From Jiulongibacter sp. (GTDB lineage Bacteria > Bacteroidota > Bacteroidia > Cytophagales > Spirosomataceae): a DNA stretch of 34,453 nucleotides. The position numbers and the translations under genes were made by a program. The stretch spans positions 1,005 to 35,457 of the forward strand of contig JAHEBN010000022.1 of NCBI GenBank assembly GCA_024645245.1. The letters are read 5' to 3'. Of this stretch, positions 27,950 to 34,453 are shown piece by piece. Each line of letters starts with the position of its first letter. Within the stretch, counting starts at the first letter, position 1. The notes under the pieces are model-generated. The model ran no database searches and had not been told where the DNA came from. It saw only the letters and a list, made by a program, of their open reading frames with translations.

Positions 27950-29082
27950 TCAAGCAGAATTCATTAATTCTTCAATTTCCTCGGCCAAAAGTGGGATTTT
28001 AGCTGCGAGATTCATTGGTCCCTTTTCTGTTATAAGAATATCATTTTCAAGTCGGATGCCAAAAGCTTCTTTTTCAATGTATATACCTGGCTCACATGTG
28101 AAAATCATACCCGCTTGAAAGCTAATATACCTGCTCCCCACATCGTGCACATCTAAACCCAGCGGATGAGAAATACCATGTGGAAAATACTTTTGAACCA
28201 GTTTTTCATTATCGTCCTTTCCAAAATTTTCGCCCAAACCTATTTTATGAAGTACAGATGCGATAAATGAGATGATTTCTTTTTTTACTTCCAGTAAATT
28301 ATTGCCAGGTCTTAATAATTCAGTTGCAAAAAATAGAATATCGAGCACGGCTTCATACACTTCTTTTTGTCTTGGACTAAATTTACCATTTGCAGGAATC
28401 GCTCTGGTGATATCTGCATTGTAATTGGCGTATTCTGCACCGAAATCAATCAGGATTAAATCTCCATCTTTGATTTGTTCATTATTAGAAATATAGTGCA
28501 AAATACAGGCATTTGAACCACTCGCTACTATAGGTTGAAAAGCATGACCTCTTGAACGGTTCATTAAGAACTCGTGCGTAAGTTCTGCTTCCAGTTCAAA
28601 TTCATATTTTCCCGGTTTAACCGATTTTAAGACTCTTCTGAATGCTTTTTCCGATATGGAAATGGCTTTCTTTATTAATTCGATTTCAATATCTTCTTTT
28701 TTTAATCTTAAGTTGGCTAAAATCGGAGCCAATCTTTTTATTGGATGTAAAGAGAATTTTTGGCGAATTGAATTATTGAATCTTTCGTTTTTTGCGAGAA
28801 ATCCATCTTTTAAAGGATTAGATTCATTCGAATTCAGATAAATAATTTCTCCCGTAAGTTTTCATCCGGGTGATCAGGGAAAATTAACAAATAGGTATCT
28901 TCCTGATCGATTCCTGTTAAATAAAACAGATCATTATTTTGCCGAAAACCCATAATGCCGTCGGCATTGGTAGGCAAAACATCGTTCGAACAGAACAGGG
29001 CAATCCCTTTAGGATCAAGTTTTATTTCTAACTTTTTCCTGTTTATTTGGAAAAGATTTGTATTAATTTGTTCGTAACGCAT
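27950..29082 (-). pseudogene. pepP: Aminopeptidase P (Xaa-Pro aminopeptidase, M24) disrupted by an out-of-frame internal deletion
   Basis: Two pieces of one gene. The first (ATG 29082 to TGA at 28834) encodes the start of the AMP_N domain ('NNDLFYLTGIDQEDTYLLIFPD') and runs out at 'ENLREKLFI'. The second reading frame is open from about 28859 to 27950. It encodes 'YLNSNESNPLKDGF', then 'RLAPILANLRLKKEDIEIEL' and the full M24 catalytic domain, with metal ligands visible in 'DFGAEYANYNADITR', 'FPHGISHPLG', 'CEPGIYIE' and 'IRLENDI'. Family proteins are about 430 residues. Here roughly 45 residues are missing between the pieces near 28840-28850, and the frames do not match, so no full-length product is possible. 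The second frame has only weak start choices (TTG 28732). The cause could be genuine decay or an assembly error. Confidence 0.8.
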
Positions 29083-29083
29083 T

Positions 29084-29890
29084 TTAATTGAGTCGCAAAA
29101 CCATCAAACCACTGTGTTTTTTAATGCGATTAATGTAGCTTAATAAAGGTTCGTCCGAGATTACCACTTCTTTTTGTTCCGTCGATGCGTGCATGAAATG
29201 CAATTGATTTCCTTGCCAAATTGCGAATCCTTCGTGATTTACATCCAAACCTTCTACTGTTGAAGTAAAAGCAATAATATCACCATCTTTAATTTCTTTC
29301 AATTTAGTTGGCAAAGTAACTTTTGGTATTTCGTAAAATGCGTTGACTGCCAAATCATTCTCCATTTTCTGTATCTTGGCAAGCATATTATTATCGGTTT
29401 TAAAGGCCGGATAATATTGCCTGTGCGTACTCATGAAGTTTATTTTTTTTGCCTTTTTAATCCCGATTTTGGCGGTTACATTAGAAAGTATATTTTTTTT
29501 CTCCGCCTCTAGAGCCCAGTCCGTAAAATAATGAATACGAGAGGCGTAGTCTGTAATTTCTCCGTTTCGGTATCTTAAGTTGGTGATGTTATCTAGCACA
29601 GCTTGCTCATTATCAAGTCCTTGTTGATGTGCGAGTGCCATGGCCAACATGGTTTCTACAAAGGTGTAACAATCAAAACCATCGGTTCTGCAAATTAATT
29701 TTTCTGTATCACCCTCCAGAGTACCTCCTATATAGGGCGTGCCCAGGTAGTTTTTACCCAGTTCAAGTACTTGGCGTGGTGTTTCGGTACTACTGGTTTT
29801 CTGAAGGATTTCAGAAATAGAAGCCTTTTGAGCATTTACACTTAGGCAAATCACAAAAAGTAGTAAAAAGGCCGGAGCCGAAAGTTTCAT
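29084..29890 (-). CDS. Exported DUF1460 (N-acetylmuramoyl-L-alanine amidase-like) protein
   Basis: 268 residues with a signal peptide ('APAFLLLFVICLSVNAQ'). The mature part carries 'NYLGTPYIGGTLEGD', 'CRTDGFDCYTFVETMLAMA' (probable nucleophile Cys74) and 'DVNHEGFAIWQGNQLHFMHAS' (probable catalytic His). This is the DUF1460 pattern, an NlpC/P60-like cysteine amidase fold that acts on peptidoglycan. It is expected to be periplasmic. Its stop at 29084 is one base from the broken pepP start (29082), so the two were probably cotranscribed. The 5' spacer is shared with the divergent gatC operon. Confidence 0.82.
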   Translation of the reverse strand: MKLSAPAFLLLFVICLSVNAQKASISEILQKTSSTETPRQVLELGKNYLGTPYIGGTLEGDTEKLICRTDGFDCYTFVETMLAMALAHQQGLDNEQAVLDNITNLRYRNGEITDYASRIHYFTDWALEAEKKNILSNVTAKIGIKKAKKINFMSTHRQYYPAFKTDNNMLAKIQKMENDLAVNAFYEIPKVTLPTKLKEIKDGDIIAFTSTVEGLDVNHEGFAIWQGNQLHFMHASTEQKEVVISDEPLLSYINRIKKHSGLMVLRLN

Positions 29891-30021
29891 TTTTAATATT
29901 TTTGGATGAAGATATCTTTAAAACGTAAAATTGAGAAATGTATGCACTATTTTAAAAATTAATTCAGATTAAATTACTTTTTAGAAGCGGTGAAACATCA
30001 AATATGCTGATTTTGTTAAAG

Positions 30022-30076
30022 AAATTAGGAAAGCTTATCCCAAATAGGTGCTATTTTCCTCTTACTTTCCTAATTT
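30022..30076. repeat. Nested inverted repeat upstream of gatC operon
   Basis: A perfect 12-bp inverted repeat (AAATTAGGAAAG at 30022-30033, its complement at 30065-30076) encloses two unpaired 8-base segments and a second perfect 6-bp stem (AAATAG 30042-30047, CTATTT 30051-30056) with a GTG loop. The result is a symmetric 55-base structure: 12-bp stem, 8/8 internal loop, 6-bp stem, 3-base loop. It lies in the 242/272-base divergent spacer between the DUF1460 gene and gatC, so it is not a terminator of either. The right arm overlaps the promoter-like box at 30071-30078. Possible roles are a bipartite operator, a cruciform or an RNA element. The rest of the spacer (29891-30021) is AT-rich with nothing else that I can support. 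Confidence 0.6.
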
Positions 30077-30078
30077 TG
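30071..30078 (+). promoter_or_regulatory. TAnnTTTG (-7-like) promoter box of gatC-gatA-gatB operon
   Basis: TAATTTTG matches the Bacteroidota -7 consensus and lies inside the right arm of the nested inverted repeat, so anything bound to or folding that repeat would affect initiation. No clear -33 TTTG is present at 19-21 bases. A start point near 30083 would give a leader of 50-80 bases. Confidence 0.45.
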
Positions 30079-30162
30079 TCGGTCTTTAGCTTTCGCAGCT
30101 TGACAAAAACAGTTTAAGATAAAAATTAAAGGGTGTTGAATAATACCCAAGCCGCAATAGGA

Positions 30163-30432
30163 ATGAGTAAAATGATGTCGCTGGAGCACCTCTCCAGTAT
30201 TCGCGGAGCAGAGTCTTCAGAAGCAGTGGAAAAACTGTTTGAAGCAATAAAGAATGCCAAATCAAGTAATTCAGATAGCAGCCACAGGTTGAAAAATACG
30301 GCTGTGGAATTGGACGATTTACGTAATGATGAGGTCATTGAAAGCTCAGAAGATGTGAAAAAATTGATACGTCAGAATTTTCCGATGGAAAAAAATGGAT
30401 ACCTGGTTGTGGCTAAAGTTATAGAAGAATAA
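30163..30432 (+). CDS. gatC: Divergent GatC subunit of tRNA-dependent amidotransferase
   Basis: 89 residues from ATG 30163. An upstream GTG at 30133 would give 99, and a stop codon just before it limits any further extension. The C-terminal half fits GatC well: 'DDLRNDEVIESSEDVKKLI', then 'FPMEKNGYLVVAKVIEE', matching the family pattern L-R-x-D-x-V ... P ... G-Y-x-V-x-K-V. The N-terminal half ('MSLEHLSSIRGAESSEAVEKL') is only loosely like the usual helical hairpin. GatC wraps around GatA and GatB and stabilises the complex. Its stop overlaps the gatA ATG (TAATG), indicating translational coupling, and this context makes the call firm despite the divergence. Confidence 0.75.
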   Translation: MSKMMSLEHLSSIRGAESSEAVEKLFEAIKNAKSSNSDSSHRLKNTAVELDDLRNDEVIESSEDVKKLIRQNFPMEKNGYLVVAKVIEE

Positions 30433-31832
30433 TGGGATCGGAAATACAGAGAATTCACCAATTATTGGTTGAGAAAAAGATAAGTTGTACAGATTTGGTT
30501 CAGGGAAAATTGGATGAATTGACAAAAAGCACTTCAAATACTTCAAATTTCCTGCTGACAGATTATGCATTGAATCTGGCAAAAAAAGTAGACCAAAATA
30601 TAGCTAACGGGAAAGAAATTGGGATTTTAGAGGGAATTCCCTTTGGAATTAAAGATGTTTACCTGCTGCAAGGTTCACCAGCTTCTGGTAGTTCAGATTT
30701 TCTTCGGAATTATATTTCTCCATATACCGCAACAGCTATTCAAAAATTACTTGATGCAGGTGCAATTCCAATTGTTAAAGAAAATTGCGATAGTTTCGGT
30801 CACGGTAGTAGCAATGAAAACAGCGTATTCGGAGCTGTAAAAAATGCAGTTAATGAAAAATTAGTGGCTGGAGGCTCCAGTGGAGGTAGTGCCGTTAATG
30901 TGGCAAAAGGGTACACTGTATTTTCCATCGGTGGCGATACCGGTGGCTCAGTCAGGCAGCCCGCCGGATACAACAAAGTCTATGGTTTAAAACCCACCTA
31001 TGGCCGTATTTCAAGATATGGAATAATGGCCTATGCCTCTTCTACCGATGTGGTGGGTCCGATTGCACGTACAATGGAAGATATTCTGATGGTACTTAAT
31101 GTAATGTCCGGGAAAGATTATCACGACCAAACAACCATAAATTCGGATAACATTAGTTTAAGTGATTGTCAGGATAAGGAAGCGGCCCAAAAGCTAAAAG
31201 TTGGGTACTACAAAAGTTTTATAAACAATAAGGCCATTGAACCGGGTATCAAAACCGATTTTATGGCTTTAATTGAAAAGATAAAAGGCCAGGGAATAGA
31301 AGTTGTAGAGCTTGATTTTCTTGATTCCGAGACTTTGGTATCTACCTATTATACGCTTGCCATGGCCGAAACCGCCTCAAATCTGGCCAGATTGGATGGA
31401 ACCAATTATGGAAATCGCATTACCGGCACCAATCTGAAGGATACTTATGCCATTACGCGTTCCGAAAATTTTACCGTAGAAACGAAAAGAAGAATCGTTG
31501 GTGGAAATCAGGTTTTATCTCAAGGTCATTCGGAAGAAATATACCTGAAAGCGAGGCAAATACGTGATATTATTACTGAGCAGTTTGAATCAGAATTTGA
31601 GGAAGTAGATATTATTTTATCGCCGGTTTCGCCGAATAATGTTCCCGAAATTGGTAATAGCCTGAAAGATCCCATGACCATGTATTTATCAGATGCCTAC
31701 ACGGTCGGGTTTAGTTTGGGCGGTTTACCCACGCTTTCTGTGCCAGTAGGGCCATCAACCGGTTTGCAGGTGACGGCAGCTAAAAATCAGGAGCTTAAAA
31801 TCCTTCAATTTTCAAATTTAATAACAGCCTAA
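30432..31832 (+). CDS. gatA: Asp-tRNA(Asn)/Glu-tRNA(Gln) amidotransferase subunit A
   Basis: A 466-residue amidase-signature enzyme that hydrolyses glutamine and passes ammonia to GatB. The Lys-cis-Ser-Ser triad is visible: Lys74 ('PFGIKDVYLL'), Ser149 ('VAGGSSGGSAVNV') and Ser173 ('GGDTGGSVRQPAG'). 'GLKPTYGRISRYGIMAYASS' is the GatA-specific substrate region. The otherwise strongly conserved K-T-N-M-D-E-F stretch reads K-E-N-C-D-S-F, and the C-terminal end is slightly short, so the protein is somewhat divergent. It is coupled to gatC by a one-base overlap and lies 4 bases before gatB. All three amidotransferase subunits thus come from a single operon. Confidence 0.92.
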   Translation: MGSEIQRIHQLLVEKKISCTDLVQGKLDELTKSTSNTSNFLLTDYALNLAKKVDQNIANGKEIGILEGIPFGIKDVYLLQGSPASGSSDFLRNYISPYTATAIQKLLDAGAIPIVKENCDSFGHGSSNENSVFGAVKNAVNEKLVAGGSSGGSAVNVAKGYTVFSIGGDTGGSVRQPAGYNKVYGLKPTYGRISRYGIMAYASSTDVVGPIARTMEDILMVLNVMSGKDYHDQTTINSDNISLSDCQDKEAAQKLKVGYYKSFINNKAIEPGIKTDFMALIEKIKGQGIEVVELDFLDSETLVSTYYTLAMAETASNLARLDGTNYGNRITGTNLKDTYAITRSENFTVETKRRIVGGNQVLSQGHSEEIYLKARQIRDIITEQFESEFEEVDIILSPVSPNNVPEIGNSLKDPMTMYLSDAYTVGFSLGGLPTLSVPVGPSTGLQVTAAKNQELKILQFSNLITA

Positions 31833-31836
31833 TTTA

Positions 31837-34453
31837 ATGGATATTGAACAATTGACAGCGGAACTCGCTGCCCACGATTTAGAATTGGTAATTGGTCTGG
31901 AAACGCATATCAGGCTGAATACTAAATCTAAATTATTCTGTGCTTGTCCGAATCAGGAAAGTGAAGTGCCCAATACCAATATTTGCCCGGTTTGTACCGG
32001 CCAAATGGGCGTTTTGCCAGCTATTAATAAAGAGGCGATTCGTAAAGCAATTTATTTTGGGAAGGCTGTGAATTCAAGTTTTAAGAATGAAGTAATATGC
32101 TGGGATAGAAAGCATTATGAATATCCCGATTCACCAAAAAATTTCCAGCTTACTCAATTCCAAAGTCCGATAATACCGGATGGAGAAGTAAAATGTTTTC
32201 GGGAAGATGGCAGCACTTTTAGTGTGGAATTGGAGCAGGTACATCTGGAAGAAGATGCGGCAAAATTGATGCACGAAAGAAATCAGACACTTGTTGATTT
32301 CAACAAAGCGGGTGTACCATTGATTGAAGTGGTGACAAAGCCGGTAATTCAAAATATTAAGGATGCTGCTACTTATGCTCAATATTTGCAGAGAATCGTT
32401 CAAAACCTGGGTATTTCAGAGGCCAACCTGGAGAAAGGGGAGTTTAAGTCGGACGTCAGCGTATCCTTACGTAAAAAAGGAAGTGAGGATTTGAATCCAC
32501 GCACCGAAATCAAAAACCTGAACTCGTTTAAGTTTATGATGGAGGCTTTGGTGGAAGAAATCGCCAAGCAATTGGATTACCTGAAGGAACATAAAAAATT
32601 CCGCCCAGATCAAACTACTGTGCTTTGGGACGAAAACCTGAAGCAAACGAAAACGATGCGTAAAAAGGAATTTGCAGCAGATTATCGTTATGCTTTAGAA
32701 CCGGATATCCCTTTTGTCAATATCAAGAAACAAACTGATCTGATTTCGGTTGATGCAAGTCTTTTGCCTTACTCTATTGAATCTACTTTGATTTCGGGAG
32801 GAGTAAGACCAGTTGATGCTAAATTTTTCACGTCTGATCCGGTGAGGTCTAAGGTTTTCCTGGCTATAAATGAACAAGTAGGAGATACCCTTTTTGTTGC
32901 CAAAACTTTACTCAATAATTTTAAGCCTGAGGAGTATATCCAAATTGGTAATTTGCCAGCTTTTGGTCTGGTTTTTACTGAATTGAAGCAGGAAAAAATC
33001 ACCTTAGTTTTATTTCAAAATGCTATTAAAGAGTTATTAAATAACCCGGATTTTGATTTCAAAACCTATTTTAACGAAAATTCTATAAGTGAAGAATCGC
33101 TTCATTTGGCTATTGAAGAGGTAATACACGCAAATCAATCAACGGCATCAGAAATCAAGGCTGGAAACGTAGGGAAAGCTGGTATTTTGGTGGGTCATGT
33201 AATTCAGAAGGTCGGTAAAGGAGCTTCAGGAAAAGTTGTTCGCGAAAAAATATTGGAGCAATTGGCTGCCGATTTAGCCGCTGAAAATTTGGCTAATGAA
33301 AAGATAGGTAATATATCCACTAAACCGATAAAACAAACAGTCTCAGAAGATGAAGAACTGCCTGTTACAGAAATTATAATTAAAGAACAGTATCACAGTC
33401 ATTTGATTGTTGATATTACAGAAGTTACATTAAACCAGCAAATATCGGTGGCAGGCTGGGTAGCCAGCGTACGCGATCATGGTGATCTGGTATTTGTTGA
33501 CTTGCGAGACAATAGCTATGAGGTACTTCAGATTCGGATGGACCGTTCCAATTTTAAAAATCTGGATGAACTTGCCAAGCTAAAGCCCGAGTCCGTAATT
33601 ATGGCAACTGGTGTGGTTATAAAAAGGGAAGAAGATGATTTTAATCCGGGCATTCGTACCGGAAGCATTGAGTTGGATTCAAGTAAAGTAGAAATTTTGA
33701 ATCTGGCTCGTACTTTACCATTTGAAATAAAAAGGGCGAATAAGTCGAATGAAAATGTAAGATTTAAATATAAGTTTTTAGATCACCGAAACGCTGAGGT
33801 AAGGCAAGCGATAGTTAACAGGCATCGCGTAATAAAGCTTATTCGCGATATACTTGATGAAGAGCGATTTATCGAAATAGAAACGCCAATACTTACCGCC
33901 GGCACGGATGAAGGTGCAAGGGAGTTTATAGTACCAAGTAGAAAATATCCGGGTAAATTTTACACTTTACCTCAGGCACCACAACAGTTTAAGCAAATGC
34001 TTATGGTTGGTGGATTTGAAAGGTATTTTCAAATAGCCCGTTGTTTCCGTGATGAAGATTCAAGAGGAGATCGTCAGCCGGAATTCACCCAGTTAGATAT
34101 TGAAATGGCTTTTGTTAGTATGCAAGAGGTCATTGACGTCAATACCAAACTTTTCAGAAATATTGTGGAGAAAATCTACGGTAATAAATGGAAATTATTT
34201 CCTTTCCGCGTGCTGGATTATTATGAATCCATGGAAAAATACGGCTGCGACAGGCCGGATCTTCGATTTGGACTGGAAATGCAAAATATTACCGAAATTG
34301 TTTCAAGTACAGATTTTCAGGTTTTTGCAAAACCAATTGAGCAGGGTGGCATTGTTAAATGTATCAAAGTAGATGGTGCCTTGCAAAAGACCCGGTTATC
34401 GAAAGGTCAGATAGAAAAACTAACTTCCATTGCTCAGGAGCATGGTTTGGGCG
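31837..34453 (+). CDS. gatB-aspS: GatB-AspRS fusion: amidotransferase subunit B fused to aspartyl-tRNA synthetase (3' end beyond window)
   Basis: One uninterrupted frame of at least 872 codons, open to the window end. Residues about 1-480 are complete GatB: 'LVIGLETHIRLN', the zinc cysteines 'FCACPN' and 'NICPVCTGQMG', 'WDRKHYEYPDSPKNFQLTQF', 'LEEDAAKLMH', 'FNKAGVPLIEVVTKP' and 'PRTEIKNLNSFKF', then the tRNA-binding YqeY tail ending near 'GKASGKVVREKI'-type sequence. Residues about 480-518 are a polar linker. From about 519 comes bacterial AspRS: OB-fold 'SVAGWVASVRDHGDLVFVDLRD', class II motifs 'FIEIETPILTAGTDEGAREF', 'YTLPQAPQQFKQMLMVGG', 'FQIARCFRDEDSRGDRQPEF', and the beginning of the GAD insertion. 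His548 matches the His31 of non-discriminating AspRS (Leu in discriminating forms). Inference: it aspartylates tRNA(Asn) and amidates it in one particle. Confidence 0.93.
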   Translation, partial: MDIEQLTAELAAHDLELVIGLETHIRLNTKSKLFCACPNQESEVPNTNICPVCTGQMGVLPAINKEAIRKAIYFGKAVNSSFKNEVICWDRKHYEYPDSPKNFQLTQFQSPIIPDGEVKCFREDGSTFSVELEQVHLEEDAAKLMHERNQTLVDFNKAGVPLIEVVTKPVIQNIKDAATYAQYLQRIVQNLGISEANLEKGEFKSDVSVSLRKKGSEDLNPRTEIKNLNSFKFMMEALVEEIAKQLDYLKEHKKFRPDQTTVLWDENLKQTKTMRKKEFAADYRYALEPDIPFVNIKKQTDLISVDASLLPYSIESTLISGGVRPVDAKFFTSDPVRSKVFLAINEQVGDTLFVAKTLLNNFKPEEYIQIGNLPAFGLVFTELKQEKITLVLFQNAIKELLNNPDFDFKTYFNENSISEESLHLAIEEVIHANQSTASEIKAGNVGKAGILVGHVIQKVGKGASGKVVREKILEQLAADLAAENLANEKIGNISTKPIKQTVSEDEELPVTEIIIKEQYHSHLIVDITEVTLNQQISVAGWVASVRDHGDLVFVDLRDNSYEVLQIRMDRSNFKNLDELAKLKPESVIMATGVVIKREEDDFNPGIRTGSIELDSSKVEILNLARTLPFEIKRANKSNENVRFKYKFLDHRNAEVRQAIVNRHRVIKLIRDILDEERFIEIETPILTAGTDEGAREFIVPSRKYPGKFYTLPQAPQQFKQMLMVGGFERYFQIARCFRDEDSRGDRQPEFTQLDIEMAFVSMQEVIDVNTKLFRNIVEKIYGNKWKLFPFRVLDYYESMEKYGCDRPDLRFGLEMQNITEIVSSTDFQVFAKPIEQGGIVKCIKVDGALQKTRLSKGQIEKLTSIAQEHGLG

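Follow-up and report, generated by a model that had tools for sequence, protein, structure and literature searches.

The gatC gene of this Jiulongibacter sp. is preceded by a nested inverted repeat, and the locus raises the question of whether the repeat regulates the gat operon or lies across something that matters for other reasons. The repeat sits in a gap of 242 nt that separates a minus-strand AmiA-like gene from the plus-strand open reading frame containing gatC, inside the 34,453-nucleotide stretch of DNA that was analysed as a whole (hereafter the window). Its outer arms are 31 nt apart and pair perfectly (12 of 12 bp), and a 6-bp stem lies concentrically inside them, leaving 8 unpaired nucleotides on each side (Table 1). 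The original prediction had drawn this structure with exact sequence and coordinates, and had rightly placed a -7-like box in the right arm, which holds six of the eight bases. It had also pointed to a second complementarity, TTTTGTC/GACAAAA, which exists and has three bases in common with the first repeat. Its proposals for a function were an operator, a cruciform or an RNA switch with competing foldings. Judging by titles and the openings of abstracts, I found no literature on an inverted repeat at a Bacteroidetes gatC promoter. The reading preferred here, at a probability of roughly 0.78, is that the functional element is an ordinary housekeeping-sigma promoter of the Bacteroidota type serving the gat operon, and that the repeat is accidental and probably functionless.

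Table 1. Features of the gat locus, with positions counted from the first nucleotide of the window
Feature	Position	Strand	Basis or remark
AmiA-like gene (PF07313), divergent	29084-29890	-	Also divergent beside gatC in five relatives
Left outer arm AAATTAGGAAAG	30022-30033	.	Sequence; the 26-nt stretch holding the arm is not conserved (5-8 of 26 against relatives)
Inner 6-bp stem, AAATAG (30042-30047) and CTATTT (30051-30056), loop GTG	30042-30056	.	Right arm coincides with the block's -28 motif
Conserved 31-bp block, putative gat operon promoter	30048-30078	+	Identical to five relatives at 22-26 of 31 positions; alignment A1; pattern searches
T-rich motif near -28	30052-30057	+	Block layout
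T-rich motif near -18	30062-30069	+	Block layout
Right outer arm CTTTCCTAATTT	30065-30076	.	Overlaps the -18 motif in part and takes in 6 of the 8 bases that make up the -7 box
-7 box TAATTTTG (TAnnTTTG)	30071-30078	+	Sequence; consensus and position from the available parts of PMC6847099 and PMC9723704
Second pairing, TTTTGTC and GACAAAA	30074-30080 and 30102-30108	.	5' half upstream of the predicted start
Predicted transcription start, 4 or 5 nt past the -7 box	30083/30084	+	Spacing in the available part of PMC6847099
gatC	30163-30432	+	Likely start ATG 30163, from which five relatives align; frame open from GTG 30133
gatA	30432-31832	+	PF01425; TIGR00132 443.5 bits, below the cut-off of 481.1
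gatB-aspS fusion, truncated by the window end	31837-34452	+	Profile and family matches

A conserved block with the layout of a promoter precedes gatC

Searching for gatC as a protein (E <=0.001) across 222 genomes of the family revealed a patchy distribution, with six carriers including the genome under study. The other five (G018, G033, G169, G020 and G168, the order in which values are given hereafter) are of other genera, making four genera in all with that of the window, and served as the comparison set. The relatives matched the window at 23, 25, 26, 22 and 22 positions of a 31-bp block and one another at up to 30, while the 26 bases directly 5' of the block, where the left arms lie, matched at 5, 8, 7, 5 and 6 positions. 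Conservation is thus confined to the right half of the repeat. Common to all six upstream regions is the order GTGC (ATGC in G020), 19 or 20 bases, and TAnnTTTG, and in six of six genomes the block lies 71-119 nt before the ATG of gatC.

This layout resembles the primary-sigma promoters of Bacteroidota as described in the available parts of PMC6847099 (F. johnsoniae) and PMC9723704 (F. psychrophilum). The -7 element of F. johnsoniae reads TAHHTTTG, spans -12 to -5 and stands 4 or 5 nt from the start; it is accompanied by A/T-rich motifs centred on -18 and -28, with a -33 motif that is much less evident, and the box of F. psychrophilum likewise occupies -12 to -5. The window has a matching element in TAATTTTG, and the five relatives have TACTTTTG or TACCTTTG; shared with the described promoters are the TAnnTTTG core with no G at either N position, T-rich motifs roughly one and two turns of the helix further upstream, and a weak -33. 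The TAnnTTTG motif alone is common (40 occurrences in the window against 46 expected) and by itself is no evidence. The block differs from the described promoters in reading GTGC instead of TTTG near -33, which counts against the preferred reading, in having a start that is only predicted, and in a spacer that is unusually conserved between genera. A -33 TTTG or TTG some 20 bp ahead of the -7 box was absent from these sequences, GTG standing there (ATG in G020), and a promoter logo built from TAnnTTTG sites upstream of open reading frames (26, 12 and 39 sites in G020, G018 and G000) was too noisy to be informative for -33.

The presence of the block at the same place in all six gatC-carrying genomes of the family supports TAATTTTG as the gatC -7 box, as first proposed, and from the sequence I infer both promoter activity of the block and its start site. 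The gatC-gatA-gatB/aspS operon would then be driven by a housekeeping-sigma promoter composed of GTGC at about -33, T-rich motifs at about -28 and -18, and the -7 box, with a leader of about 80 nt up to the gatC ATG. The inverted repeat would span about -61 to -7, would not be transcribed from the gat promoter and would probably have no function of its own. With the predicted start downstream of both, neither the repeat nor the TTTTGTC strand of the second pairing should be part of the gat mRNA or fold there. The gat operon would thereby gain a promoter supported across four genera, with a predicted start site.

The block is associated with gatC

Two patterns were built from these sequences, so that recovery of the source sequences is by construction, and the result lies in the absence of matches elsewhere. 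The looser pattern, allowing up to 3 mismatches, matched once before gatC in each of the six genomes (the window's own block at 3 mismatches) and at one extra place in G169, also at 3 mismatches, and the reversed control gave 0 matches. The strict pattern, for which the window's own block is too diverged, matched 7 of the 222 family genomes, five before gatC with 0-2 mismatches and two elsewhere with 3, against 2 genomes for the reversed control. Among 390 genomes of the order it matched 5, three before gatC and two elsewhere at 3 mismatches, and the reversed control again matched 2. The 3-mismatch matches elsewhere count against the preferred reading, as do the 3 mismatches of the window's own block to the looser pattern and its escape from the strict one; homology of the window's block with those of the relatives rests on position and alignment. 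Of 60 loci, mostly from other Bacteroidota, only L015 and L016 came within 4 mismatches, and these two contigs belong to G169 and G018, already counted; the next best match had 5.

As a background for upstream conservation, 58 reciprocal-best gene pairs were collected, 28 of them with usable upstream regions. Four pairs reached 27 of 31, at least some of them owing to mis-set starts or to another short gene upstream (gatC before gatA), and one likely promoter pair (TATCTTTG) stood at 24. Of 60 non-orthologous controls, 58 scored 15-21, one 23 and one 31, the last perhaps the same region drawn twice. On the strength of these pairs and controls the gat block is well conserved, but is not proven to be exceptional.

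The divergent AmiA-like gene was considered as the owner of the block and ruled out. It occurs in 39 of the 59 genomes searched and in 36 of the 37 within the family, only four of which have gatC; because most family genomes carry it without gatC, the block tracks gatC, not the AmiA-like gene.

The repeat is not conserved in relatives

On the gap-free alignment A1, 49 of the 108 hairpin cells were paired, a count that drops to 31 of 90 in the five relatives once the window's own 18 are set aside. Four of the 18 hairpin pairs had changed on both sides, and not one was kept in all six sequences. A conserved hairpin is ruled out by these cells and by the left arms (5-8 of 26 identities); a structured RNA conserved through compensatory change is at odds with the finding that none of the 18 pairs persists in all six, and an operator dyad conserved with the gene it controls with the left-arm identities. 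Within 80 nt upstream, the longest stretch perfectly complementary to the -7 region measured 12 in the window and 4, 6, 5, 4 and 5 in the relatives. Since both the hairpin partners and the upstream complements fail there, the repeat, as judged from these alignments, is not conserved among the five relatives and the block is; among the genomes compared, the repeat is by the same comparison specific to that of the window. The original prediction named a lack of conservation in close relatives as one of the grounds that would refute it, and the dyad is indeed absent from all five, each of another genus.

One control counts against the preferred reading. The observed number of paired cells on A1 was reached by 11 of 500 shuffles and the covariation score by 3 of 500, in a test that includes the window row, the source of the structure being tested. 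Sliding the partners by -3 paired 43.5% of cells against 45.4% and raised the covariation score (0.163 against 0.104). With only the right half conserved, as a putative promoter, the repeat is most likely an accident of its lineage and not a switch, and the switch may be cleared away as a false lead.

Frequency and folding of the repeat

Among 3000 first-order Markov versions of the gap, 50 contained a perfect repeat of at least 12 bp with a loop of up to 60 nt. Twenty-one such repeats occur in 402,453 bases of the same genome, made up of 20 stretches and the window; 18 have loops no longer than 14 nt, many being A/T-flanked and terminator-like (not checked individually), and three have loops of at least 20 nt, against 1, 3, 1 and 2 in four block-wise Markov copies. 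At this length, long-loop repeats are about as common in this genome as chance would give. The repeat as a whole weakly exceeds chance: a coaxial inner stem of at least 6 bp within a 31-nt loop has a probability of 0.008, for a feature picked after it had been sighted, and this too counts against the preferred reading.

Another perfect inverted repeat in the window, of 13 bp with a 4-nt loop (843-872), has an A-rich left and hence a T-rich right end, and is terminator-like.

Operators of transcription factors may show dyad symmetry, and the repeat resembles them in its symmetry across the -7 box. An operator or cruciform specific to the genus would be a dyad that binds a repressor, or that extrudes and hinders RNA polymerase, and the perfect 12-bp arms with their coaxial 6-bp stem suit this role. 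So does the good folding of the exact 55-nt strand as single-stranded DNA (z -4.3, 0 of 200 shuffles equally good), a value biased by the trimming of the segment to the repeat. In contrast to what an operator would lead one to expect, the arms are 31 nt apart, a type of repeat found at chance frequency, they are missing in five relatives that retain the promoter, and a full copy occurs only once in the genome; the remaining 37 matches listed for a 141-nt query were short, with E >=0.02. An operator or cruciform confined to this genus is consequently unlikely. The single full copy in the genome also rules out a dispersed repeat of the REP or MITE kind.

A switch or attenuator in the gat mRNA is scarcely credible. 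The hairpin can form in the plus strand and shares three bases with the second pairing, but the predicted start lies 3' of the repeat and the hairpin is unconserved. The plus-strand RNA fold of 30015-30115 gave z -1.5 (17 of 200 shuffles equally good) and that of the leader, 30083-30190, gave z -0.9 (40 of 200). Searching the whole window with Rfam 15 at gathering scores returned 0 matches, which speaks against a described RNA family.

The minus strand of 30015-30115 folded better (-25.2 kcal/mol, z -2.6, 1 of 200 shuffles equally good), which counts against the preferred reading and is what a hairpin in a minus-strand transcript, such as the leader of the divergent AmiA-like gene, has in its favour. 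Such a transcript would have to start on the minus strand at a point beyond 30076, within the gat promoter or past it, and the hairpin is missing in five relatives with the same divergent gene, making this explanation very unlikely. The comparison with shuffled sequence suggested at the outset therefore came out poorly for the plus strand and better for the minus strand. Unconserved left arms, 31 of 90 paired cells, the lack of a second copy or an Rfam match, and a start downstream of the repeat jointly speak against the operator, cruciform, RNA switch and competing foldings originally envisaged.

Possible origin by template switching

If the promoter is the functional element, the A/T-rich sequence upstream of it may complement the promoter elements by chance, or may have been copied to complement them. 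The latter could have come about by quasipalindrome template switching during replication, in which a repeat that was still imperfect, with 9 of 12 pairs if the relatives' right arm is taken, served as its own template, turning TT into CC and C into A in the right arm and leaving a functionless footprint. This origin is a sub-case compatible with the preferred reading and an alternative to pure coincidence, and it is put forward tentatively as a possibility. The five relatives agree against the window at three of the 31 block columns (A1 columns 48, 49 and 52); all three fall in the 12-column right arm and all fit the left arm, and with the relatives' bases restored there 9 of 12 pairs are left. 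On the other hand, three private sites are few and were examined post hoc, and coincidence in A/T-rich sequence may also account for them.

Template-switch quasipalindromes, as described in the available parts of PMC7202029, PMC8604942 and PMC8794818, share with the window substitutions that are specific to a lineage, fall in a single arm and make the pairing complete. The window differs from them in that no event was observed and the ancestral left arm is unreadable, the upstream 26 nt failing to align between genera. This would be a possible case of template switching perfecting a repeat over a working promoter. That such an event across the conserved promoter also gave birth to a recent regulatory dyad, controlling the GatCAB/AspRS-fusion operon in this genus alone, is distinctly improbable.

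The gat operon and its neighbours

The GatC protein is very diverged, scoring 19.7 bits against TIGR00135 (cut-off 47.1) and matching no Pfam profile at E 0.001. The third gene of the operon encodes GatB fused to aspartyl-tRNA synthetase. Of 60 loci retrieved for their GatA similarity, 56 encode the same fusion, with almost all of the 872 aa covered by one tblastn segment, in hosts that include Flavobacteriaceae, Paraglaciecola, an Ignavibacteriales MAG and others, and the fusion frames of the five relatives are 1105-1126 aa long. A separate AspRS (584-600 aa) and an AsnRS above the family cut-off are encoded as well, both in the genome under study and in each of the five relatives; no asparagine synthetase scored above the cut-off of TIGR01536, the one profile used, in the genome under study. 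According to the available part of PMC4206432, a second AspRS together with GatCAB makes asparagine on tRNA in Deinococcus and Thermus, and by analogy the GatB-AspRS fusion operon perhaps serves tRNA-dependent asparagine synthesis. This accessory operon is the more interesting biology beside the repeat.

A separate leader hairpin, GGGTGTT-GAAT-AATACCC, lies at about 30131-30148 on the plus strand, shortly 5' of the gatC start, and the five relatives have counterparts that differ in sequence. The observed score was reached by 28, 110, 127, 134, 72 and 42 of 500 shuffles, which Fisher's method combines to about 0.03; both region and score were picked post hoc and hence no claim is made.

Two adjacent minus-strand open reading frames of 82 and 260 aa (27950-29082) perhaps reflect a frameshift or an assembly error, and resemble the N- and C-terminal parts of a single Xaa-Pro aminopeptidase. 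On contig L012 of G033, a short tandem array of GGGAGAA units (about 1140-1205) lies between the AmiA-like gene and gatC.
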